In this document: one piece after another, positions 11,312-43,704 of the stretch
Layout: every line of letters begins with the position of its first letter
Position numbering within the stretch: position 1 is the first letter of the stretch
Source: a virus
Direction: 5' to 3' (one strand)
Virus record (IMG/VR): IMGVR_UViG_3300034198_015460
Location: 1-64,000 of that record
DNA: 64,000 nt
The notes under the pieces: model-generated
What the model was told of the DNA's origin: nothing
Database searches by the model: none
The model's input: the letters and a program-made list of their open reading frames with translations, nothing else
Made by a program: the position numbers and the translations under genes

Positions 11312-11848
11312 TTAAATTATCCATTCTGGGGGGTTGCGGTTTTTCCAGGAATGCATTCTAGCCTTTCCTAGTTTGTAATAGTTTCTATAATTAACGATTG
11401 GGTCGTTGCTTATAATATATTGTTTATCCATGGCAGATGGTGGAGTAGTCCAATCCCATTTTTCTAAGTTTTTAGGAGGGGATTGAAGCATATAACTCAA
11501 TTCTCCAAAACAAGAATGTTGTTTGCTATAACGAAAAGTATATTCGCTCATCAAAGCAAAGAAATGATCAACAAGCCAATTGTAATTTTCAATTGACTCT
11601 CTACACCAAACAGCAGAAGGATGATTGATGTGCGTCGCTGAATATAAAACATTTTCTCGTGAATCGCTGAGAACCCAGCGGCGAGCTTTTCTACCAGAAA
11701 GAGTTTTCCCTTCAATTTCTTTGCCATCAAGAAATCGATGCGCTGTGGACAACAGTTGGGCGGATTCTAGAACCATTTTCACAACATGACGATCAACGAG
11801 ACAACGGGCTGCAGTCTGCGCGCATCGGTCAACATAGAAAATATTAAT
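11312..11848 (-). CDS. conserved phage protein with apparent AUU start
   Basis: 178 residues if initiated at ATT (11846-11848). The in-frame NIFYVD...ARCLVDRHVVKMVLESAQLLSTAHR matches, from memory, the N-terminus of a family common in T4-like phages, where it follows the initiator Met. The first standard start, GTG at 11782, would delete 22 conserved-looking residues and has no ribosome site. AGGAG lies 7 nt before the ATT, which is 1 nt after the stop of the homing endonuclease gene. Mostly helical, with HINHPSAVWCRESIENYNWL and RNYYKLGKARM segments. Function unknown. Confidence 0.7.
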   Translation of the reverse strand: MNIFYVDRCAQTAARCLVDRHVVKMVLESAQLLSTAHRFLDGKEIEGKTLSGRKARRWVLSDSRENVLYSATHINHPSAVWCRESIENYNWLVDHFFALMSEYTFRYSKQHSCFGELSYMLQSPPKNLEKWDWTTPPSAMDKQYIISNDPIVNYRNYYKLGKARMHSWKNRNPPEWII

Positions 11849-11849
11849 G

Positions 11850-12557
11850 TTAGCTCTCCTTCAAAGAACAGTTATCAAAATGATAACGTCTCATAGCAAA
11901 TGCACCTCCATTTTTACCACAGTGTGGGCATGCTGTCAATTCTTGTTTATAACCTTTTTCTCTTACTGGAGAGAAAGCTTCGTTAAACGCTTTGACTTGT
12001 CTGATAAGTCCTTCAGGTGAGATTGACTGTCTAGATCTTTTACCATGTTCTTTAAGTTCATCGGCATTCATCTTTGAAAATCTTGCTTTTTGAGCTTTAC
12101 TTTTTAATTGTCTGGAATGTTCACTTTCTTTGCTGCCTTTCTTATTTTTATTGGCAGATGATGTCAGTGCTTTCTTTTGTTCCTTTGTCATCTTTGATCT
12201 CTGAAGCTTTAAGCTCTCTGACATTTTAAGAAGTGTTTCTTCAGAATACTCACGATCTACACAACCTTCACCGCCAGCAGTCATGTTATATCCATAACCG
12301 TAATCATTTGATCTATAATGTTTTATCCATTTTTGTTCAGCTTCATATATTTTACCACTTTCACATTCTTCTAACATTTCGATTTTAAAGTTCTCAGAAC
12401 CGTATTTCTTCATAGCTTGATATAACAGTCGTCTTTCTTTATTGAGACTTTTGCTACATCTAACATGATCTTCAAACCTAGATTCGATTGAATGTTTTGT
12501 TATTCCAACGTACTTTTTATTATTAACTTCATTTTTGATTAGATATACGTATGACAT
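11850..12557 (-). CDS. GIY-YIG homing endonuclease
   Basis: 235 residues. The N-terminal GIY-YIG domain (YVYLIKNEVNNKKYVGITKHS, catalytic-type Arg in RFEDH, Glu in YEAEQKWI) is followed by a Lys/Ser-rich linker with NUMOD3-like helices (TLLKMSESLK) and a C-terminal zinc finger (ACPHCGKNGG, then RRYHFDNC). This layout is that of free-standing seg-type homing endonucleases. It lies directly against the start of the conserved 11312-11848 gene, so insertion there may have removed that gene's AUG. Confidence 0.9.
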   Translation of the reverse strand: MSYVYLIKNEVNNKKYVGITKHSIESRFEDHVRCSKSLNKERRLLYQAMKKYGSENFKIEMLEECESGKIYEAEQKWIKHYRSNDYGYGYNMTAGGEGCVDREYSEETLLKMSESLKLQRSKMTKEQKKALTSSANKNKKGSKESEHSRQLKSKAQKARFSKMNADELKEHGKRSRQSISPEGLIRQVKAFNEAFSPVREKGYKQELTACPHCGKNGGAFAMRRYHFDNCSLKES

Positions 12558-12613
12558 ATGTTACTCCTTACTTGACCACATGCTTATTTATCTTTACAGA
12601 GTGTTCAAGATAT

Positions 12614-13090
12614 TCATCGCTTCCACTTTTTAAAAGCCTGTTGACGATGATAAGGATTCGCTCTGCGGAAAAACAATTCTCCATTAAGATGATCTAATTC
12701 GTGTTGAAAAATTCTCGCTGTCATTCCAACAAATTGTTTTGTCATTACATCTCCATTAGGAGTATTGAATCTTACTCTGATCTGTTGTGGACGCTTTATT
12801 TTAACGTACAGATTTGGAAAAGTCAAACATCCTTCTTCAAGGAGAATTTGTTGTTCAGAAAAATGAACAATTCTAGGATTTATACAAACAAAATTTTCTG
12901 GCTGACCTCTCATAGCAAAAATACGATATGGAACACCAACCTGATTGGCGGCAATACCTATACCATTGTTATCATACATAAATTTAACAAGGTCTTTTGA
13001 AAATTCAATTAAATCAAAAGGTGGATTAAGAAAATCCACTTCTTGACAAGGAGTTTTTAAAATAGAGTCTTTGTCAGATACTAATTCCAT
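12614..13090 (-). CDS. def: peptide deformylase
   Basis: A 158-residue viral-type deformylase with all three family motifs: GIGIAANQVG (motif 1), EGCLTFP (motif 2, metal Cys) and QHELDHLNG (motif 3, two metal His and the catalytic Glu). It removes formyl groups from nascent proteins. Marine T4-like phages carry similar short enzymes lacking the bacterial C-terminal helix; here the tail is a short basic AFKKWKR. Its start overlaps the stop of gene 46 by 1 nt, so it is co-translated with the recombination nuclease. Confidence 0.95.
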   Translation of the reverse strand: MELVSDKDSILKTPCQEVDFLNPPFDLIEFSKDLVKFMYDNNGIGIAANQVGVPYRIFAMRGQPENFVCINPRIVHFSEQQILLEEGCLTFPNLYVKIKRPQQIRVRFNTPNGDVMTKQFVGMTARIFQHELDHLNGELFFRRANPYHRQQAFKKWKR

Positions 13091-29229: not shown

Positions 29230-30411
29230 TTAAAAGGACTCTCTTACGGAAAACATCCAATTATCAGGCACAAATTTTTCATATTCATCGTCAAAATCTT
29301 CCCTTCCATCAAAAACAAATCCAAATGGAGCGAGATCTTGCTCTATATCTTCTTCAGTCTTGTCTCTCAGAGACATCAAAGTATTAATGTTTGTATAATC
29401 TTTAAAGTATTGTTGGTCTGAAAGCCAAGCAAACAAAACCAAACACATCACTAGGTCATCGTGTTTTTGTGGTTCCGCTTCGTATGAATTTCCTTTTTTA
29501 GAAAACGTTGAAAATTCGTTAATTGTATTAAAATCGTTAATAACTAATTGATTTTGTTCAATTAATAATTTAAGAATAGAACAACCAATTGTTTTGACAA
29601 CCTTAGTTGTTCTAATACCTTTATCAATTTGTGTCGAGCTTACTCCAAAACCACTAGTAATTCTTTTACCACTTCTGCCGGCATTTTCAGTAAAGAGCAC
29701 ATTTTCATAGCCAAAATCGTAGTGAAGGCTATGAGATACTTGTTCGCCTATGTCGTTTACCTCAACTAGAACAGAAGCATTGTTGTAGCTTTTGGCGGTT
29801 CTATGAATAATACTTGCATAATCAATTGGTGATACTGAGTTATTACGGAATACACATACCTGCTGATATGGCATAGAAGTAACATCTAAAAGCTGAAAAG
29901 CCGAATAATCAAGTCCTTTACCTCTTGATACGTCACAAACCATCATGTATACTCTGTCTTTGACGGGTGGAAAATATTGAATCATGCCATCTTTTTCCAT
30001 AATAGGATTTTGATGGACCATTTCTTTCAATTTCCAGCCAGCAATAAGAGTACCAGAACTACCAAGAAATTCACAATTGTGGTTAACAATATCATTACCA
30101 TAATAACAATATTCTTTTTTGACTTCCAGAGGATCGTAAAAAAATTGTTTTTCGTTGACAAATTCAAAACTTAAAATTTCACGATTGCCTTGTTTGGTAA
30201 CAATGAAATCAGATGAATTGATTTCAGCCGCTGTTTTGAATCCGTTTATTGTTAATAATAAATGCTCGGGTGTACAAATTATTTCTTTGAAATCTTCGAG
30301 TATAATACGAACATTTTCTTGTCTTTTAATCTTTCGTATGCCATCAAAATCACTCCATCCGTGAGGAGTTAAGATTTCATATTGACTATTTTTTCGAACA
30401 GTGATTTCCAT
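29230..30411 (-). CDS. 17: split terminase large subunit: C-intein + nuclease half (gp17-C)
   Basis: 393 residues. The first 112 are the C-terminal part of a split intein. It has block-B-type ICTPEHLLL (TxxH) and ends GNDIVNHN before Cys+1 (30073-30075). The remaining 281 residues are the terminase nuclease half, starting CEFLGSSGTLI, with acidic sites in MMVCDVSRGKG, LVEVNDIG and KHDDLVMCL. Protein trans-splicing with gp17-N should restore ...EQEYN-CEFLGSSG..., the expected continuous sequence. The start ATG lies inside the 3' end of the endonuclease gene and has only a weak ribosome site. Confidence 0.92.
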   Translation of the reverse strand: MEITVRKNSQYEILTPHGWSDFDGIRKIKRQENVRIILEDFKEIICTPEHLLLTINGFKTAAEINSSDFIVTKQGNREILSFEFVNEKQFFYDPLEVKKEYCYYGNDIVNHNCEFLGSSGTLIAGWKLKEMVHQNPIMEKDGMIQYFPPVKDRVYMMVCDVSRGKGLDYSAFQLLDVTSMPYQQVCVFRNNSVSPIDYASIIHRTAKSYNNASVLVEVNDIGEQVSHSLHYDFGYENVLFTENAGRSGKRITSGFGVSSTQIDKGIRTTKVVKTIGCSILKLLIEQNQLVINDFNTINEFSTFSKKGNSYEAEPQKHDDLVMCLVLFAWLSDQQYFKDYTNINTLMSLRDKTEEDIEQDLAPFGFVFDGREDFDDEYEKFVPDNWMFSVRESF

Positions 30412-31022
30412 ACTATGTTATTGCCCTTGATTATTTTTTTTAAATTTGGTATAGACATATTAAATTTTTCTGCATATTGTATACAGAAAGCCGAATCATA
30501 ATCTATAGTTTTCCCGTTTTTTCTTTTGAAATCTAAATTTAAAATTGGTTTGGAAACATACAAATTTAATATATTTTCTATACACTGTTCGTTAAATTTT
30601 TTACTATGAACCTTTCCTTTTCTTTTTTGTGACCACATGATTTTTGTTTCTTGGCTATGATGTTTATTTAACATGGGGGGAATATAATTTTCTTTTTTAG
30701 AATAGTGATTTAATCTCATTTTTTGCTTAGATTCGTCCGAAAATTTAAATCCATGTGTTGTGAATTTTTCCGTATAATTGTTGCCAGAACCATCGGGTGT
30801 TTCGTTCAATCCGTTGTTGTAAGTATCATACAGTGATATAAAAAATTTTTCAGCACAACTGATCATTTCGTGATCTTCGGAATAAAATAGAACTTCGTAT
30901 GAAAAATTATAGTCAAGAAACCTTTTAGTTTTTTTATGACTAGACATTCTGTTTTTTATATTTTTGGCTTTACCAATATATTTTTTTCCGTCTTCTCTGG
31001 TTATACAGTAAACACAATACAT
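30369..31022 (-). CDS. GIY-YIG endonuclease in the gene 17 break
   Basis: 217 residues. The N-terminal MYCVYCITREDGKKYIGKAKN is a clear GIY-YIG domain, with Arg in NIKNRMSSHKK and Glu in CAEKFFISLYD. NUMOD3-like repeats (FKFSDESKQKMRLNH, HHSQETKIMWSQKRKG) and a C-terminal helix-turn-helix-like DNA-binding tail follow. It sits between the two gene 17 halves, overlaps the start of the second by 43 nt and has its own late promoter. It probably spreads the fractured allele by cutting intact gene 17. Confidence 0.9.
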   Translation of the reverse strand: MYCVYCITREDGKKYIGKAKNIKNRMSSHKKTKRFLDYNFSYEVLFYSEDHEMISCAEKFFISLYDTYNNGLNETPDGSGNNYTEKFTTHGFKFSDESKQKMRLNHYSKKENYIPPMLNKHHSQETKIMWSQKRKGKVHSKKFNEQCIENILNLYVSKPILNLDFKRKNGKTIDYDSAFCIQYAEKFNMSIPNLKKIIKGNNIVWKSLFEKIVNMKS

Positions 31023-31046
31023 TTTATTTTCCTAGAAATTTACATT

Positions 31047-31054
31047 TATTTATA
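31047..31054 (-). promoter_or_regulatory. T4-type late promoter of inserted endonuclease
   Basis: TATAAATA about 25 nt upstream of the endonuclease ATG, in the short gap after gp17-N. It would also drive gp17-C, giving the second terminase half late expression. Confidence 0.7.
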
Positions 31055-31058
31055 TATT

Positions 31059-31970
31059 CTAGAAATTCTCATTATTCATAAGATCATATGCTTCTTCTAT
31101 GGATAAATTCAATATTTCACCCGTATTTTTGTTTCTTAGGGTTATTTTTGCATTTCCATAAACACAATTATATTCCTGTTCAAACTTCTCAAGGTCAAAA
31201 TTCATTGCAGCAAGAGTGTTCTGTTTCCAGTTATCATCTCTGCCAGGAACATCTTGCCATCTAACCATAATATTGTTATATCCATTTCTATTTTCTTTGG
31301 AATTTACCCAAATACTATAGAAGTGGTTTAGACCATTAGGAGTTGATACAAGAATAATTTTAGTTTCCGAACCAGAAGAAATGGTAGGATACACTGATGT
31401 GAAAAAATCGTCCCAGTTTTCAATAAATGCAGCTTCGTCAATGAATAGAAGGTTAACAGAGAAACCACGAATGTTATTTGAAGAAGTCGCCGTAGCAATA
31501 ACACGAGATTGGTTTTCTAGAACGAATGAACCTTTGTTCCATTCAACAACACCTTGCTGAAGCCATTTTGGAAGATGCTGGTATGCTAACTGAATACGAC
31601 TTAGAATTTCTCTAGCGGTGTCTCCTTTATTGGCCAAAAGAGCCACTGTTTTTTCTGGATGAAATATGATATACCATAAAATAAAAGCACAAGTTGTTGT
31701 TGATTTGCCTGCCTGACGAGCAGTTGTGATAATATTAAATCTACCATTAGCAAAAGCTCGTAACATATCTTTTTGATATGGATATAGTTCGAAATTAACT
31801 AGACCTTTATCAATATTGATGATTTTCATATAAGTTTCAGTAAAATAAATTACATCCTGCGAACACTTAATATATTCTTGAACAAGATCAGGGGTCCAAT
31901 CTATAGATTGATTGGCTCTTTTTAGATTTATATTACCGTTATAACCACCAAGATTATTGAATTGATCCAT
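31059..31970 (-). CDS. 17: split terminase large subunit: ATPase half + N-intein (gp17-N)
   Basis: About 303 residues from the ATG at 31970. The ATPase half has FNIITTARQAGKSTTT (Walker A), LLFIDEAAFI (Walker B) and LVSTPNGLNHF (coupling motif). It runs to EFEQEYN, where a 35-residue N-intein begins with Cys1 (31164-31166): CVYGNAKITL, then GEILNLSIEEA. It ends at a stop after NNENF. Such a short N-intein is the atypical split known from AceL-TerL-type terminase inteins. Motor ATPase for DNA packaging once spliced. Confidence 0.93.
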   Translation of the reverse strand: MDQFNNLGGYNGNINLKRANQSIDWTPDLVQEYIKCSQDVIYFTETYMKIINIDKGLVNFELYPYQKDMLRAFANGRFNIITTARQAGKSTTTCAFILWYIIFHPEKTVALLANKGDTAREILSRIQLAYQHLPKWLQQGVVEWNKGSFVLENQSRVIATATSSNNIRGFSVNLLFIDEAAFIENWDDFFTSVYPTISSGSETKIILVSTPNGLNHFYSIWVNSKENRNGYNNIMVRWQDVPGRDDNWKQNTLAAMNFDLEKFEQEYNCVYGNAKITLRNKNTGEILNLSIEEAYDLMNNENF

Positions 31971-32367
31971 CACCTTCTCTAATATTCTTTATCATTTTTT
32001 GCAATTCTGCTGTAGAACCAACAAAAAGATTGTTGTTGATAGTTCTTGCGCCATTTATTGGTTGATCAATAGCCTTAATTTCTCTGACCTTACTTTGTAA
32101 ATCCATCAAATCTCTATTGGCCTGGAGCATAGTTTCCATCAATTTTGACAATACTTCGTATGCTCTCGGATGTTGAGAACTATCGGCAATCAACGCTAAT
32201 TTATCCATAGCATCTTTGCCATTTTCAATTAAATCATGAATATTGGCTCGTGCCTGTTCAAAATCTTTTTTTGCACTATCGTCCAAAGCGGTTTCAATAA
32301 TACCATTGACTGTTTTAGTGATATTACTTAATTCTGGAAGATTTGGTTCGTCTTCTTCTTCATTCAT
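31954..32367 (-). CDS. 16: terminase small subunit gp16
   Basis: A 137-residue, acidic and helical protein (T4 gp16 164), located between 15 and 17 as in T4. The central helical part (NGKDAMDKLALIADSSQHPR, then EVLSKLMETMLQANRDLMDL) matches the gp16 oligomerisation region and the tail FVGSTAELQKMI the end of the family. Ring-forming DNA recognition subunit of the packaging motor. The start overlaps gene 15 (TAATG) and its end overlaps gp17-N. Confidence 0.9.
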   Translation of the reverse strand: MNEEEDEPNLPELSNITKTVNGIIETALDDSAKKDFEQARANIHDLIENGKDAMDKLALIADSSQHPRAYEVLSKLMETMLQANRDLMDLQSKVREIKAIDQPINGARTINNNLFVGSTAELQKMIKNIREGDGSIQ

Positions 32368-33242: not shown

Positions 33243-33965
33243 TTAAATGTTCCCTTCTGAGAAAGGATCACGAACTGTAAAGTCAACGAACTGATCTGAT
33301 TCAACTTGGAATTCATCGCTATCATCCATAGCAACCAAATCACCAACACCTTTTCCTTCAAGAATTAAATAATTTCCATCTTCGTCTGTCAAATAATCAC
33401 CGTTTTCATCTTTAATTCCCCAAGTAAGTATGTTTGTATCAAATTTCTTTTGAATAGAATCAATTTCTGGTATGCCAGTATTAAATGTTTCATTAGAATA
33501 TTCAAACAATTCTGTTGTCATTTCCCAGGTCTGAAGAGCGCCTAGTTGATAGAACATCTCATATTTGTTCACAAATTTAATTTGAAAACATTTTTTATTT
33601 AAAGGAAAATATATTAAATCGCCTTCGTTTGGTCTTACTTGTGTTGTAAAGTTTCCAACCTCTTCATTGAATATTCTTTGAGCAACAGACCAAATAACTT
33701 GATCTCTGATTTCAAGACCAAACTTAGACATGAAATTACCATCACCCTGAAACCCATCAAAGCTTTTGATATACATTTCAATAGGATAGGCGTTTTCATA
33801 TGACGATTGATCATCGGCTCCATAGATATCATCGTAATTGTTTAGTTTACGAGGAATATAGAAAACGTCATGACCGTAAATACGTATTGCCTCGATAACT
33901 AGGTTTTCGAGGAGAAGCTGTTCCTGTGACGATTGAAAATTATTGAAGAAAAAATTTGTGGCGAT
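33243..33965 (-). CDS. 14: neck protein gp14 with apparent AUC start
   Basis: 240 residues if initiated at ATC (33963-33965). The first ATG, at 33776, would remove 63 residues that clearly belong to the family: ATNFFFNNFQSSQ, NLVIEAIRIYGHDVFYIPR, compare the T4 AESIQMRGVECYYVPR. No ATG, GTG or TTG occurs upstream in frame before a stop. AGGAGG lies 5 nt before the ATC, which is 1 nt after the stop of the preceding gene. Later EGDLIYFPLNKKCFQI and YEMFYQLGA match T4 gp14. It joins head and tail. Confidence 0.88.
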   Translation of the reverse strand: MATNFFFNNFQSSQEQLLLENLVIEAIRIYGHDVFYIPRKLNNYDDIYGADDQSSYENAYPIEMYIKSFDGFQGDGNFMSKFGLEIRDQVIWSVAQRIFNEEVGNFTTQVRPNEGDLIYFPLNKKCFQIKFVNKYEMFYQLGALQTWEMTTELFEYSNETFNTGIPEIDSIQKKFDTNILTWGIKDENGDYLTDEDGNYLILEGKGVGDLVAMDDSDEFQVESDQFVDFTVRDPFSEGNI

Positions 33966-33966
33966 G

Positions 33967-34566
33967 TTATCCTCCTATATCTTTTTGAGGAGGATTATAT
34001 CCGGTCACTATTTTCATTCTTCCTATTTTTTGCTGTTCTGGATCTTTTGAGCCATACGGTATATGAGTAATCATATCAGAAGTTAATGGTTGAGCGAAAC
34101 CATTAGAGTGTAAACCATGCACTCTCATTTCTGGATCACTCATCATTCTATTTAAAGATTTTTGCATGCCTTCGGAATTTTTAGTCCATTCTATAGACGC
34201 ATTATGAGTTCTTGAAATAGATTTAATAACATCATTCATTCTAACAGGAGAACTTTTTCTGCCCTGCGTGGTTGGAAATTGATATGTTATTGATTTATCA
34301 GGATTATTTATTTGACCAGCAAATCTAACAGTATGATGTATTTTCTTATCTTCTGGATTATATGTGAAATAAGAAGCTCCGCTTCCTGGGGAAGAAGAAT
34401 GGTATAAATGTAAACCGCCTACTTCTCCAATTTTGTTAGCGTTTTTATCAAATTTATTTGGATCGTCATAAGTTATAGGTTTTGTGTCGCTGACAATTGG
34501 ATCTCTTTTTGTTTGAGATATATCGGCGGACCAAGCTTCTTTTATGTATTTTTTAAATGTCAGCAT
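33967..34566 (-). CDS. predicted capsid-internal (injected) protein
   Basis: 199 residues beginning MLTFKKYIKEAWSAD, very like the capsid-targeting sequence of T4 internal proteins (MKTYQEFIAEA). An I-x-E cleavage site (IKE|A) would be cut by gp21. The body is basic and unrecognised: GLHLYHSSSPGSGASYFTYN, IHHTVRFAGQI, MRVHGLHSNGFAQP. It lies with a homing endonuclease between genes 13 and 14, which are adjacent in T4. The product is probably packaged in the head and ejected with DNA; activity unknown. Confidence 0.7.
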   Translation of the reverse strand: MLTFKKYIKEAWSADISQTKRDPIVSDTKPITYDDPNKFDKNANKIGEVGGLHLYHSSSPGSGASYFTYNPEDKKIHHTVRFAGQINNPDKSITYQFPTTQGRKSSPVRMNDVIKSISRTHNASIEWTKNSEGMQKSLNRMMSDPEMRVHGLHSNGFAQPLTSDMITHIPYGSKDPEQQKIGRMKIVTGYNPPQKDIGG

Positions 34567-35296
34567 TTTTTAATCTACATTTCTCGTTGTGGTATCTATA
34601 AACATTGCCTTTATTTCCCCAAAAATCACAATAAACACATTTTATTTTAGTATTATTTATAAGAGAAAATGCTCCAGCGTTTTTGATTTTTTGTTTGTGT
34701 TCTTCTGTTAATGGTGCTCGTTTTATACCTTTAGACGCTGCAATTAATTCACCCGAAATCCATTTTGGATCATCATGCGTTGTATGAAAAATATTGCCAT
34801 CAGAATCTTTAACTGTAATTTTACCTTTATTTCTATTATTTTCTAACATAGTATTTCTACGTTTAATTTTAGTTTCAATATTAGACGACTTTGTATCTCT
34901 TGTTTTTAATCCTTCAATATATTTTTCACGAATTTCTGGTCGCTGCATTGCTTCTTTAGTACGAATAGAGATTTTTTCTTTTCTAGATAATAAGTTACTT
35001 TCATCTAGCCATGTATCATTTACATTTTTTGAAAGATTATAATAACGAATTTTAAGTTCTTCATCTTTCACTAAAGAAAGCCAATATTTTTCACGTTCAT
35101 ATAATTCTTTACGGTTGATATAAACACGTTCTAAAATTCTACGTTTAAAATCTTTAGGGCGGTGCTTATGTGCTTGTCGCATCCACGGAGATGAACAAAT
35201 ATACCCATCATTTTCTGTTCCCCAGTGCATACCAATATAATATCTTTTTTGTTTACGATCTAACCAGATATAAACAAAACCATATTTTTCTTGCAT
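34553..35296 (-). CDS. GIY-YIG homing endonuclease between genes 13 and 14
   Basis: 247 residues. The N-terminus KYGFVYIWLDRKQKRYYIG and HWGTENDGYICSS are nearly the same as in the endonuclease downstream of gene 23, so the two are paralogues. FKRRILE and ELYEREKYWL carry the catalytic Arg and Glu. The middle is Lys-rich with NUMOD-like stretches; a C-terminal zinc finger (IKCVYCDFWGNKG, RYHNEKC) resembles that of the endonuclease at 11850. Its end overlaps the capsid-internal protein gene by 14 nt. Late promoter upstream. Confidence 0.9.
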   Translation of the reverse strand: MQEKYGFVYIWLDRKQKRYYIGMHWGTENDGYICSSPWMRQAHKHRPKDFKRRILERVYINRKELYEREKYWLSLVKDEELKIRYYNLSKNVNDTWLDESNLLSRKEKISIRTKEAMQRPEIREKYIEGLKTRDTKSSNIETKIKRRNTMLENNRNKGKITVKDSDGNIFHTTHDDPKWISGELIAASKGIKRAPLTEEHKQKIKNAGAFSLINNTKIKCVYCDFWGNKGNVYRYHNEKCRLKNADI

Positions 35297-35347: not shown

Positions 35348-36088
35348 TCAGCCGATCATATCGCTGACGGGCAACGAATAAGACGTAATCATATCTCTTT
35401 CTAATTCTGCACGTTCTTGATTGGCGTCAGCTAAAATTTGCAAACCATTAAACTCGATACCACCAGGAAGTTTCATACCACGAAACTTTGAAAGATTAGC
35501 TCCCCATTGTTGCTTAATTAAACACGTAGCATATCTAAGCAACCAACGATCTCCCCATGCTTTTGTATAAACTTCTGGGTCGACTACTTGATATACTTCT
35601 GCTATTAAATAATTACCAGCGTCAAATTTATTCCAATCCATATCAAGATAAAGTTTATTGATGTGGCGATTGTATCTAAGTGGTTGTTTACCAACCAACA
35701 TCATTTCAAGAAACTGAATATGTTGTAGAGCCATATAATATGGCACCATAGAAACAGAGGTAAGAGTGTATAAATCATTCAAAGCAATTTGATAACGAAT
35801 ATTGAATAGATTGTTTGTATTCAAAGCCTGACCGACCTCAAATACATTAACAGCGCCGATCACGTTATCTGGAAGAGTAATGTATTTGTTTGTTATATCG
35901 GTTTGAGTGACCTGATGCTTATAGTATATTTTCTCAGCGCCCTCAAAATGATAATCCCAAAAATAACGAAGAGCTTCGTCGACGCGATCATCAACTTGAT
36001 CATCATCGACGTTAATTTCAATTACAGGTTTGCCTAAACGACGTAGGCAGTACTCTTTGAATTCGCTCTTTGTGGTAGGTATTGCCAA
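35348..36088 (-). CDS. 13: neck protein gp13
   Basis: A 246-residue protein (T4 gp13 309) with TTG start (36086-36088), 1 nt after the stop of a small membrane gene. Typical features: MAIPTTKSEFKEYCLRRLG start, DDDQVDDRVDEALRYFWDYH acidic segment, and YGLGWGDR-like TKAWGDRWLLRYATCLIKQQWG with KLPGGIEFNG. These match gp13 of T4-like phages. It forms the neck ring with gp14. The non-AUG start is supported by AAGG and by the conserved N-terminus. Confidence 0.93.
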   Translation of the reverse strand: MAIPTTKSEFKEYCLRRLGKPVIEINVDDDQVDDRVDEALRYFWDYHFEGAEKIYYKHQVTQTDITNKYITLPDNVIGAVNVFEVGQALNTNNLFNIRYQIALNDLYTLTSVSMVPYYMALQHIQFLEMMLVGKQPLRYNRHINKLYLDMDWNKFDAGNYLIAEVYQVVDPEVYTKAWGDRWLLRYATCLIKQQWGANLSKFRGMKLPGGIEFNGLQILADANQERAELERDMITSYSLPVSDMIG

Positions 36089-40975: not shown

Positions 40976-41869
40976 TTACCACCAAGAAACTATAATAACT
41001 CCTGGACCACCATCACCACCCCTACCACCTCCTAATGAACCTCCAGCACCTCCGCCACCACCCCCAGAACCAAAAGCACCAGCGCCGCCAGCACCCCCAA
41101 CAAATATTGTGCTTGCACCCGCACCACCTCCGCCTGAACCTCCACAAGACATGAATGGTTTTGTGAACATTACACCAGCATTACCATTTGTTTGAGAAGC
41201 ACCACCAGGAATAGTAGGTATAAATCCTGCACCTGTTATAGCACCACCAGCACCTGTGCTAGCACCACCTGTTCCACCTGCGCCACCTGATACTATAATA
41301 TTAGCTATAGCACCCCAAGTAACCGCTGAAGGGCTAACGGCTGAGCTTTCATTCTGCGCACCTCCAGCGGTACCTACTTGACCAATAGAAGTAGTGTATA
41401 GACCATAGTTATTCCATCTATCAGAAGTAGAGGCTGAACCAGCAGTGCCAGCAGCACCTAATGCAATAGAACTTCCACCACCTCCTGCACCACCACCACT
41501 TGCACTTAAAACATAATCTCCTGTTGGACCTATGAGAGCAACATAGCTTACAGTTCCTGCTGTTCCGCCAGTAGAAGCAGCACCACCCGGACCTCCAGGT
41601 CCTGGTGAGACGTAAAGGGTATCTGGAATATAACTAGCAGGTAACATAAGAGTCGTTATTGCACCAGAACCTCCGCCACCACCGCCGCCTCTAGCAGTAG
41701 TAGATGAGTTAGTATGACCACCTCCACCTCCACCACCACCTCCAACAAGATAGAAATTGAAGTAACTTACACCTCTTGGTTTTATGAAAGTATAGACGTT
41801 TGTTGCTTCAGCAAAATAGATCGCATAGTTACCATCCATTGATCTCGGTAGATGTGAAAAATCACTCAT
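40976..41869 (-). CDS. polyglycine-rich adhesin, paralogue 1
   Basis: 297 residues, about a third Gly. It opens MSDFSHLPRSMDGNYAIYF and has a beta start, then blocks of 4-9 Gly (LVGGGGGGGGGH, ARGGGGGGGSGA, GGAGGTGGA) and a Cys in MSCGGSGGGG. It ends GPGVIIVSWW. The pattern recalls the polyglycine-II sandwich adhesins at T2/S16 fibre tips (gp38), which determine the receptor. One of three tandem paralogues. Confidence 0.8.
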   Translation of the reverse strand: MSDFSHLPRSMDGNYAIYFAEATNVYTFIKPRGVSYFNFYLVGGGGGGGGGHTNSSTTARGGGGGGGSGAITTLMLPASYIPDTLYVSPGPGGPGGAASTGGTAGTVSYVALIGPTGDYVLSASGGGAGGGGSSIALGAAGTAGSASTSDRWNNYGLYTTSIGQVGTAGGAQNESSAVSPSAVTWGAIANIIVSGGAGGTGGASTGAGGAITGAGFIPTIPGGASQTNGNAGVMFTKPFMSCGGSGGGGAGASTIFVGGAGGAGAFGSGGGGGGAGGSLGGGRGGDGGPGVIIVSWW

Positions 41870-41870
41870 G

Positions 41871-42779
41871 TTAAAACCCCCAGATCATTACTAAACCAGA
41901 ACCACCTCGTCCTCCTAAAGAAGAATTTCCAGAGTTGTTGATATAAGTACCGCCACCGCCGCCGCCAGAACCAATACCCGCATCACCTCCAGTTCCGCCA
42001 TTACCAGTAGCGGCTCTACAACCTCCACCACCGGAACCTCCACAAGACATAAAAGGCTGCATATAAGTAAGCCCAGATTGACCATTAGTTGCAGTTGAAC
42101 TTGTGCTTCCAGCACCCCCACTGATTGTCGGCATAAAACCAGCACCAGTTATAGAACCTCCTGTACGCGCTGTTGGCGTTGTAGTACTACCACCACCGCT
42201 AGCACCACCGGATAAAATTATAGAACCCCATGTAATACCCGCAGATGGCTCTGATGTAGTTCCTGTAGCGCCCGCTTGCCCCGCAAATAAAGAATAACTT
42301 CCATAAGACCCAAGAATCATATTTGTAGCAGTTGCAGCAGCTCCCGCCGAACCACCGGCTGCGCTTCCGGCGCCACCGCCACTTGCATAACATATTACAT
42401 ACGCGGCAGTAGTATTTGGTTGTACAGAAATATAAGACGCGCCTCCGCTACCACCGGATGTACCATGCGATCCATCGATCGTGCCAGTGTTAATTCCTGC
42501 TGATCCTCCAGCGCCTGAATTGACATATAGAATATCAGGAATTAGACTAGCATGGATTAACATAGTAGTAATTCCTCCTGAACCACCGCCTCCACCGCCA
42601 AAACCATTACTAGCTGAAGCTACTGAGCGTCCAGCACCGCCGCCTCCACCGCCACCTATACATACAATATAGATGCTTGTTATTCCTCTAGGCTTATTCC
42701 AGACTTGCCATTGAGAAATACTATAATATACTGAAAAGTTTGATCTGAGATTTTGTGAAATATGTGAGAAGTCTAACAT
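41871..42779 (-). CDS. polyglycine-rich adhesin, paralogue 2
   Basis: 302 residues; start MLDFSHISQNLRSNFSVYY, first aromatic/hydrophobic strand WQVWNKPRGITSIYIVCIGG, then Gly blocks (GGGGGGGAGRS, FGGGGGGSGG) and the common MQPFMSCGGSGGGG, end SGLVMIWGF. The frame and end (hydrophobic strand) match its two neighbours while the loops between Gly blocks differ, as expected for receptor specificity loops. One base separates it from paralogue 1. Confidence 0.8.
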   Translation of the reverse strand: MLDFSHISQNLRSNFSVYYSISQWQVWNKPRGITSIYIVCIGGGGGGGAGRSVASASNGFGGGGGGSGGITTMLIHASLIPDILYVNSGAGGSAGINTGTIDGSHGTSGGSGGASYISVQPNTTAAYVICYASGGGAGSAAGGSAGAAATATNMILGSYGSYSLFAGQAGATGTTSEPSAGITWGSIILSGGASGGGSTTTPTARTGGSITGAGFMPTISGGAGSTSSTATNGQSGLTYMQPFMSCGGSGGGGCRAATGNGGTGGDAGIGSGGGGGGTYINNSGNSSLGGRGGSGLVMIWGF

Positions 42780-42783
42780 GTTA

Positions 42784-43704
42784 CTACCATGATGTTATTA
42801 TTACCAAGCCAGGACCGCCGTTACCGCCAGCACCACCGCCACTTGTACCTCCAGCACCGCCACCACCGCCGCCGCATCCATATGTTGCATTACCACCTCT
42901 AGCACCTGCTGTTGTCGTTGAGTTAGATGAACCCCCACCTGACCCTCCAAGAAAAACTAAAGGGACTAAAAAACCAGATCCGGCTACTCCAGCACCCGGA
43001 GAAGCGCCACCAGAACCACCAGAAATTATGGTACTTTGAAAAACTGAAGGTAGTGGTGCACCACCAGTTCCCAAGTTACCTCCCGCAACACCAGAACCGC
43101 CTCCACCACCAGCACCGCCAATAGTTATGTCACCTCCCATGGTTGTGGAACCCGCAGCAGTACCGCTTACAGCACCACCAGCTCCACCAGTATTTCCCGC
43201 AACAGCGGTAAATATTGCAAAATTTGAAAAAGTAGCAGAAGTTGAAACCATAGCAACAGCAGCAGCACCACCAGCAGCATTGAGGGTAGTTGGACCTGCT
43301 GCACCCCCACCACCACCATTAGCATAAGCAAGTAAATATGCTGCTGTGGTGCTTGGATATAAACTTACATAACTAGCCCCGCCGTCAGAACCATTAACTC
43401 CTGAGCCAGTTGAACCAGCACCTCCTCGACCAACTTGAATGTATAATAAATCAGGTAATAAAAAAGCAGGCACTAATAATCTTGTTGTTGTTCCTTGCGC
43501 ACCACCCCCGCCACCACCTCTAGAACCGGTAACTGAATTAGATCGACCGCCACCGCCGCCACCGCCGCCACTAAGACAGAAGATATTGATCATAGAACAG
43601 TTGCGAGGTTTATTCCAAACTTGCCATTCTGTAGCTGCGTTCAATGCATAGAAGTAGTCTATCTTTGCTGTCTGAGAATCAGAAACGTGAGAAAAATCAA
43701 GCAT
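42784..43704 (-). CDS. polyglycine-rich adhesin, paralogue 3
   Basis: 306 residues; start MLDFSHVSDSQTAKIDYFY, shared EWQVWNKPRNCSMINIFC strand, Gly blocks (SGGGGGGGGRS, RGGGGGGAQG, GCGGGGGGAGG) and end GPGLVIITSW. Closer to paralogue 2 than to 1 in its opening. It is the first of the three in transcription. Three in a row implies duplication and divergence rather than one adhesin gene as in T2. Confidence 0.8.
   Translation of the reverse strand: MLDFSHVSDSQTAKIDYFYALNAATEWQVWNKPRNCSMINIFCLSGGGGGGGGRSNSVTGSRGGGGGGAQGTTTRLLVPAFLLPDLLYIQVGRGGAGSTGSGVNGSDGGASYVSLYPSTTAAYLLAYANGGGGGAAGPTTLNAAGGAAAVAMVSTSATFSNFAIFTAVAGNTGGAGGAVSGTAAGSTTMGGDITIGGAGGGGGSGVAGGNLGTGGAPLPSVFQSTIISGGSGGASPGAGVAGSGFLVPLVFLGGSGGGSSNSTTTAGARGGNATYGCGGGGGGAGGTSGGGAGGNGGPGLVIITSW

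Follow-up and report, generated by a model that had tools for sequence, protein, structure and literature searches.

In the stretch of DNA analysed here, a window of 64,000 nucleotides that is part of an 81,135-base IMG/VR virus record from a T4-like phage, a conserved gene with a weak match to the endonuclease V family begins at ATT, one base behind a free-standing homing endonuclease gene (HEG). Homology places the start of the gene at this codon, and we regard AUU as very probably its true start; we also have good confidence that the AUU start is linked to the HEG. A second gene of the window, gp14, starts at ATC behind an insert that holds another HEG. As a whole explanation we lean, by a little, towards a start codon that was carried in by the HEG, recoded in a way that spoils the endonuclease target, and compensated by a strong Shine-Dalgarno (SD) sequence. 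The features are collected in Table 1, where L followed by a number names a locus of the comparison; ATH stands for ATT, ATC or ATA.

Table 1. Features at the two junctions of the window
Feature	Position	Strand	Remarks
def, peptide deformylase	12614..13090	-	PF01327 E 3.3e-41
ATGAATATCTT, remnant of the original start (M N I F)	12607..12617	-	fused to def stop codon
Free-standing GIY-YIG HEG	11850..12557	-	between def and endonuclease V-like gene; PF01541 E 4.2e-11; phrog_314 E 6.3e-31
AAGGAG Shine-Dalgarno	11856..11861	-	within final HEG codons
ATT start codon	11846..11848	-	
178-aa phage gene, weak match to endonuclease V (Pyr_excise) family	11312..11848	-	PF03013; phrog_624 E 1.3e-50
Gene 13, TTG start	35348..36088	-	ends GGC TGA; HEG-free contiguous relatives end TAA
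GIY-YIG-like HEG between gp13 and gp14	34553..35296	-	own Pfam match none; blastp-related to L095 and L117 inserts
Cargo ORF behind the gp13-gp14 HEG	33967..34566	-	relatives between gp13 and gp14 in L117, L121, L127, L157
AGGAGG Shine-Dalgarno of gp14	33971..33976	-	
gp14 (head closure/neck protein)	33243..33965	-	ATC start 33965-33963; phrog_460 E 1.6e-66

The ATT start of the endonuclease V-like gene

An earlier note on this DNA had proposed a near-cognate start at this ATT, shortly after an SD sequence and one base behind the HEG stop, and the letters confirm it. The minus strand around 11848 reads TTG AAG GAG AGC TAA C ATT AAT ATT TTC TAT GTT GAC, with the HEG stop TAA at 11852-11850, a C at 11849, ATT at 11848-11846 and a gap of 7 nt between AAGGAG and ATT. 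Reading back from ATT, the frame stays open for four codons and meets TGA at the fifth; it holds no ATG, GTG or TTG on the way, and the first in-frame start downstream is GTG at codon 23.

Relatives of the gene were gathered in a protein scan of IMG/VR, of which the best 80 of 572 were kept. All of these 80 align from residue 1, and the annotated coding sequences of Pelagibacter phage HTVC008M and Methylophilales phage Melnitz-3 start at the same residue as well, so that the family alignment, which had been named as the means of choosing between ATT and the internal GTG, fell on the side of ATT. The start codons of the best 80 of 572 were ATG in 46, GTG in 23, ATT in 9 and TTG in 2. Residues N2, I3 and F4 are invariant in 50/50 aligned proteins, and the ATH alleles differ in codons 2-7 by 538 synonymous versus 124 non-synonymous changes (210 non-independent pairs), an excess that is the expectation for a translated sequence.

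The ATT start is shared by a second, 99%-identical contig, IMGVR_UViG_3300032282_002939, and a search selected for GGAG found ATT or ATC starts in further contigs (44 stretches, including L202, which has an ATA start and is apparently an unrelated match). A DNA search for the junction in cultured phages gave no match. Protein and pattern scans yielded 192 distinct sites for both genes together, where the endonuclease V-like gene starts with ATG at 80, GTG at 28, ATT at 27, TTG at 4 and ATC at 3; part of its ATT and ATC rows were GGAG-selected, and the extra queries L206 and L193 are ATT and ATC alleles. With the reading frame and the N-terminus conserved from a non-AUG codon and an in-frame alternative absent nearby, the gene would be classed, from its sequence, among those with a near-cognate start.

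We give almost no credence to a true start at the internal GTG or ATG (codons 23-25), or to an intron or a +1 frameshift by which the HEG or def would be linked to the gene. In favour of such a link, splicing ATGAATATCTT to CTATGTT would give M N I F Y V. Nevertheless, splicing of the remnant to the gene body was rejected, as the window holds no Rfam intron and the presumed 3' edge has no G; a group I intron core around the HEG was absent, the Rfam gathering scores returning only tRNA families over the whole window. A programmed +1 frameshift from the HEG fails because the TGA five codons upstream interrupts the frame of the gene and because several HEGs are antisense, and because antisense HEGs exist a HEG-gene fusion is excluded as well. 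The invariant residues and the mostly synonymous changes described above speak against the internal start. A sequencing miscall or assembly error was also discarded, being unlikely since ATT and ATC recur across many other contigs. A phage tRNA with anticodon CAT lies at 487-563.

The match of the protein to PF03013 is borderline (23.6 bits, cut-off 23); its predicted fold has a pLDDT of 91, and no significant or informative PDB match to this fold was listed. In T4 endonuclease V the nucleophile is the N-terminal amine; with such a nucleophile the exact start would matter, and the adjoining deformylase gene would be suggestive. In many relatives the peptide deformylase gene and the endonuclease V-like gene adjoin and often overlap (window 11312-13090, minus strand), the def stop then overlapping the start of the next gene as RTGA (gap -4).

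Remnant of the original start and the inserted genes

It had been supposed that the insertion ended exactly at the old start codon. This has to be abandoned, given the remnant listed in Table 1: after the def stop the window reads CGATGAATATCTTGAACACT, that is ATG AAT ATC TT, and the sequence is foreign from there on. Because the end of def still carries ATGAATATCTT, the insertion lies inside codon 4, past nucleotide 11 of the gene, and the ATT behind the HEG is a rebuilt and altered copy of the start. Among the ATGA sites of the window (both strands) 2 of 677 continue as ATG AAY ATH TT, and the def-fused remnant is one of these.

The HEG of the window carries a GIY-YIG nuclease domain (PF01541, 43.4 bits, cut-off 22.6; phrog_314, phrog_7168). 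In L213/L028 the HEG is an unrelated one of HNH type (phrog_655) in antisense orientation; the same remnant, ATGAACATCTT, is found there with foreign sequence next to it, and the ATT start is rebuilt in a similar way. The two kinds of HEG thus share one break point, 11 nt into the gene. A clear start remnant was not seen in the other HEG-bearing alleles L209, L231, L190 and L222.

The parallel with gene 14 that the earlier note had drawn stands: the ATC start of gp14 lies behind AGGAGGATAAC and the junction reads AGGAGGATAAC ATC GCC ACA AAT; the start is also seen in the twin contig L081. The immediate upstream gene is the cargo ORF, whose final codons (GGA GGA TAA) hold the SD of gp14, and the HEG is one gene further upstream. 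The L095 member of this gp13-gp14 HEG group matches phrog_314 (homing endonuclease, E 1.1e-16). The cargo ORF gave no Pfam or PHROG match, and its relatives occupy the gp13-gp14 interval, in some cases beside a HEG and in others not.

Elsewhere in the window the gene for the terminase large subunit is split (29230-31973, minus strand). The end of its N part (31059-31973, Terminase_6N) is intein-like and is followed by a GIY-YIG HEG (30369-31022) and then by an ORF in which an intein splicing segment (PF14890, scoring below cut-off) precedes Terminase_6C, an arrangement resembling a split intein accompanied by a free-standing HEG. At 40976-43704 (minus strand) three glycine-rich ORFs of similar sequence follow one another; they are probably tail fibre or adhesin paralogues.

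Start codons with and without homing endonuclease genes

For gp14 the rows were not pattern-selected, and both queries (the window and L122) are ATC alleles. In both genes duplicate junctions were collapsed in the counts, and L234 (the window's own genome) and loci without a match from residue 1 or 2 were removed. The gp14 starts among the 192 sites are ATG 37, GTG 5, ATC 4, ATT 3 and TTG 1. Where gp14 lies directly behind gp13 (32 rows) ATG is used in 31 and GTG in one, and the 18 rows whose insert exceeds 250 nt show ATH 7, GTG 4, TTG 1 and ATG 6. Inserts were assigned a HEG by GIY-YIG or HNH similarity, partly through ORF reading by eye; on these calls the eleven with a HEG have ATH 7, GTG 3 and ATG 1 (L156), and the seven without have ATG 5, GTG 1, TTG 1 and no ATH. 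The share of ATH is therefore 7/11 in HEG-flanked gp14 versus 0/39 in the others, with a Fisher value of 3.3e-6 (50 rows) that is too small because the rows are related. Since ATH is absent from the non-HEG inserts, the effect does not come from any insertion, and insertion of any kind was rejected as the cause given that ATG is kept beside HEG-free inserts in 5/7 gp14 rows and 2/2 rows of the endonuclease V-like gene. The stop codon of gp13 changes too, from TAA in 32/32 contiguous rows to TGA (9) or TAG (2) in the eleven HEG rows; TGA also occurs in 4/7 non-HEG inserts.

In the gp14 tree (both trees were built without duplicates and without proteins of <130 or <150 aa) there are 5 ATH changes, and still 5 on the starred branches alone. 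In 7 independent pairs that differ in the HEG, a non-ATG start went with the HEG in 5.5 on average and ran counter to it in 0.1. The sign test gave a median p of 0.03 for non-ATG starts and p 0.06 when ATH was taken by itself. The proposed link of near-cognate starts with inserted mobile genes is supported by these results. The weak starts cited along with it, TTG of gene 13 and GTG of the 6974 gene, are as described; a general tolerance of weak starts is not the explanation, as the HEG-free gp14 siblings use ATG.

A scan centred on the HEG, with that of L422 as query and the best 80 of 152 kept, gave 42 distinct gp14 junctions, some of them already counted (L425 is L422, and L456/L457 are L095/L098). 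Within these best 80 of 152, ATH was found at 16 junctions (ATC 11, ATT 2, ATA 3), GTG at 5 and ATG at 21, L450 being counted as ATG by eye; GGAGG precedes 16/16 of the ATH starts, and ATG, GTG or TTG lies within 8 codons in 0/16. In the same set the 26 junctions with >60% identity to the gp14 of the window have ATH 16, GTG 5 and ATG 5, and below 60% ATG is used in 16/16; the ATH effect is therefore limited to part of the tree. At some of these junctions a cargo gene stands between the HEG and gp14. Not all rows are independent, because an ancestral edge may be common to the HEGs of a family.

Near-isogenic pairs show the change most directly. The gp14 proteins of L095 and L098 (HEG, ATC) and of L097 (no HEG, ATG) are the same beyond residue 1 and the last 48 coding nt of gp13 are identical, whereas the gp13 stop is TGA versus TAA, the gp14 start ATC versus ATG and codon 2 GCC versus GCA. 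L422 and L414 differ at 11 of the last 48 nt of gp13 and at none of the 192 beyond them; on the gp14 side they differ at 6 of the first 45 nt and at 11 of the following 192. Both in this pair and in L368 versus L109 the recoded patch is densest by the insert and the genes are otherwise near-identical; in L368 the patch on the gp13 side extends further, with 19 differences in the next 192 nt. The gp13 ends of L136, L368, L122 and L156 have the same or a very similar recoded tail (YSLPCTDLIG then TGA) and belong to three HEG types. The existence of near-isogenic gp14 pairs with and without the HEG is an indirect indication that the HEG at 11850-12557, too, may cut HEG-free alleles and drive its own inheritance.

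In the endonuclease V-like gene, among rows more than 250 nt from def, the ATT rows have a HEG in 7/7 and the ATG rows lack one in 2/2. Two of these seven HEGs are sense GIY-YIG and five are antisense HNH-type; three of the rows (L190, L222 and L231) came only from the GGAG-selected scan. The tree of this gene is poorly resolved, with 18 changes by parsimony, 4 of them forced by starred branches, and 2 independent pairs. ATT alleles without a visible HEG are L031/L221, L220 and five rows that lie 56-57 nt from def (L195, L206, L214, L216 and L224). These five are possible scars of lost HEGs, and L031/L221, with no HEG in between, may be another scar of HEG loss. In 16 further ATH rows def was not located, and a HEG-like ORF was seen in three only (L194, L199 and L212). 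Termination-reinitiation, on which translation was supposed to rely, may assist at the HEG stop of the window; it cannot be general, because five of the seven HEGs are antisense, nor is it required, several ATT alleles having no HEG.

The SD sequences differ in strength between the two kinds of start. In unselected rows GGAGG precedes gp14 in 7/7 ATH versus 0/43 other starts, and the endonuclease V-like gene has GGAG in 12/12 ATH versus 28/111 others and GGAGG in 9/12 versus 1/111. GGAG lies 6 to 8 nt ahead of the start codon; L012 was left out of the SD count, having only 11 nt upstream.

Proposed origin of the recoded start and comparison with known systems

We propose, as the simplest reading, that initiator tRNA would start translation at AUU, guided by the strong SD in the final HEG codons. 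The AUU would have arrived with the element: the gene would have been broken behind ATGAAYATCTT, beside def, by the HEG or an ancestor of it, whose 3' end would have restored the lost start as ATTAATATTTTC. An exact copy of the start would remake the endonuclease target beside the element's own gene; with the third base of ATG altered (at gp13-gp14 also the upstream stop codon), the protein would be kept and the target spoiled. The strong SD would then maintain initiation at the recoded start, and homing would spread the HEG with its recoded edge into ATG phages.

We infer that the endonuclease reads the G of the start codon and that its change is protective; a third-base change fits this need, as it removes the G from the recognition sequence and leaves the protein unchanged. 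Whether the start codon does lie within the endonuclease target and was recoded as self-protection seems to us evenly balanced, and a point counter to it is that HEG-flanked gp14 also starts with GTG (5/42) and ATG (21/42) at the HEG-side junctions (best 80 of 152). The ATT alleles with no visible HEG and the restriction of the effect to one part of the gp14 tree weigh against it as well, as do the gp13 stop TGA in HEG-free inserts and the few forced changes in the tree of the endonuclease V-like gene. We would go tentatively, and not quite half-way, towards the wider reading that unrelated HEGs in T4-like phages target gene starts, where ATG to ATT, ATC or ATA would immunise the HEG allele and a strong SD would be portable at the edge, spreading even into the gene for the neck protein.

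It is also conceivable, and in our view unlikely, that one ancestral insertion made the strong SD and the AUH start and that co-conversion spread this edge, the start codon being irrelevant to cleavage. Co-conversion does leave short recoded patches like those around the HEGs in the near-isogenic pairs, and the ATH edges of gp14 are alike, mostly GGAGG-N-TAA-N-ATH; however, the edge recurs with different HEG families (phrog_314 GIY-YIG and phrog_655 HNH), in both orientations and in two genes, and ATT, ATC and ATA are all found. AUH starts are inherently weak, and in E. coli infC and pcnB starts of the AUU/AUC type regulate expression, IF3 discriminating. The recurrence of ATT in the endonuclease V-like gene family would suit a similar role, in which AUU or AUC lowers or times downstream expression and the HEGs are mere neighbours; we find this highly improbable, near-identical phages without a HEG starting the same gp14 protein at ATG.

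Relaxed selection, where the insert supplies a strong SD because coupling to the upstream gene has gone, leaving the start codon free to drift, is very unlikely. GGAG accompanies every ATH start here, and according to PMC5622118 bacteria are known to pair weak starts with a strong SD; nevertheless drift yields GUG and UUG, the switches counted in that study being 363 to GUG, 113 to UUG and 1 to AUU, and at this ratio 5/10 AUU-like changes would have a p of about 1e-11, a rough figure with approximate lineage counts. Moreover, ATG is kept in most non-HEG inserts.

If the recoding is indeed protective, start codons would be a cheap hiding place from a homing endonuclease, gene callers that accept only ATG, GTG and TTG would cut conserved phage genes short, and the natural allele pairs would be a ready test of an extended SD rescuing a bad start codon.

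Natural AUU starts include those of infC and pcnB and the internal AUU of T4 gene 26. Initiation at AUU behind an SD is alike in these, yet they are single conserved cases, whereas here AUH is an allele acquired with a mobile element. HEGs that bear a replacement piece of the invaded gene are those of fungal mitochondrial rps3 and Allomyces atp6. They resemble the present case in the insertion within a gene whose displaced end is rebuilt by the element; the phage case differs in that it concerns the 5' end, start codon included, and in that the rebuilt copy has been recoded.

Our search of the open literature found no report of a HEG-linked start-codon change. According to PMC5622118, bacteria and archaea very rarely switch from AUG to AUU (1 case in 61,358), yet such switches are recurrent here in two genes beside mobile elements. 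The compensation of weak starts described there is alike in the stronger SD of non-AUG starts, but concerns GUG and UUG in bacteria and archaea, and here it is AUH. That HEG targets lie over conserved coding sequence, and that target variants escape cutting, is established (PMC2988022, PMC3229294).

The closest likeness is with the free-standing GIY-YIG and HNH genes seg and mob of T4-like phages (PMC2988022, PMC2993671): the HEG lies between conserved genes, the flanks change with the HEG, homing is intronless with co-conversion, and different HEG classes hit the same target. For the free-standing enzymes of T4, PMC2988022 describes cleavage sites that are hundreds to thousands of bp away from the HEG, whereas here the changes cluster at the HEG edge, and this distance counts against a target at the edge. 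In contrast to seg and mob, it is the start codon of the next gene that is altered here at the edge of the HEG.
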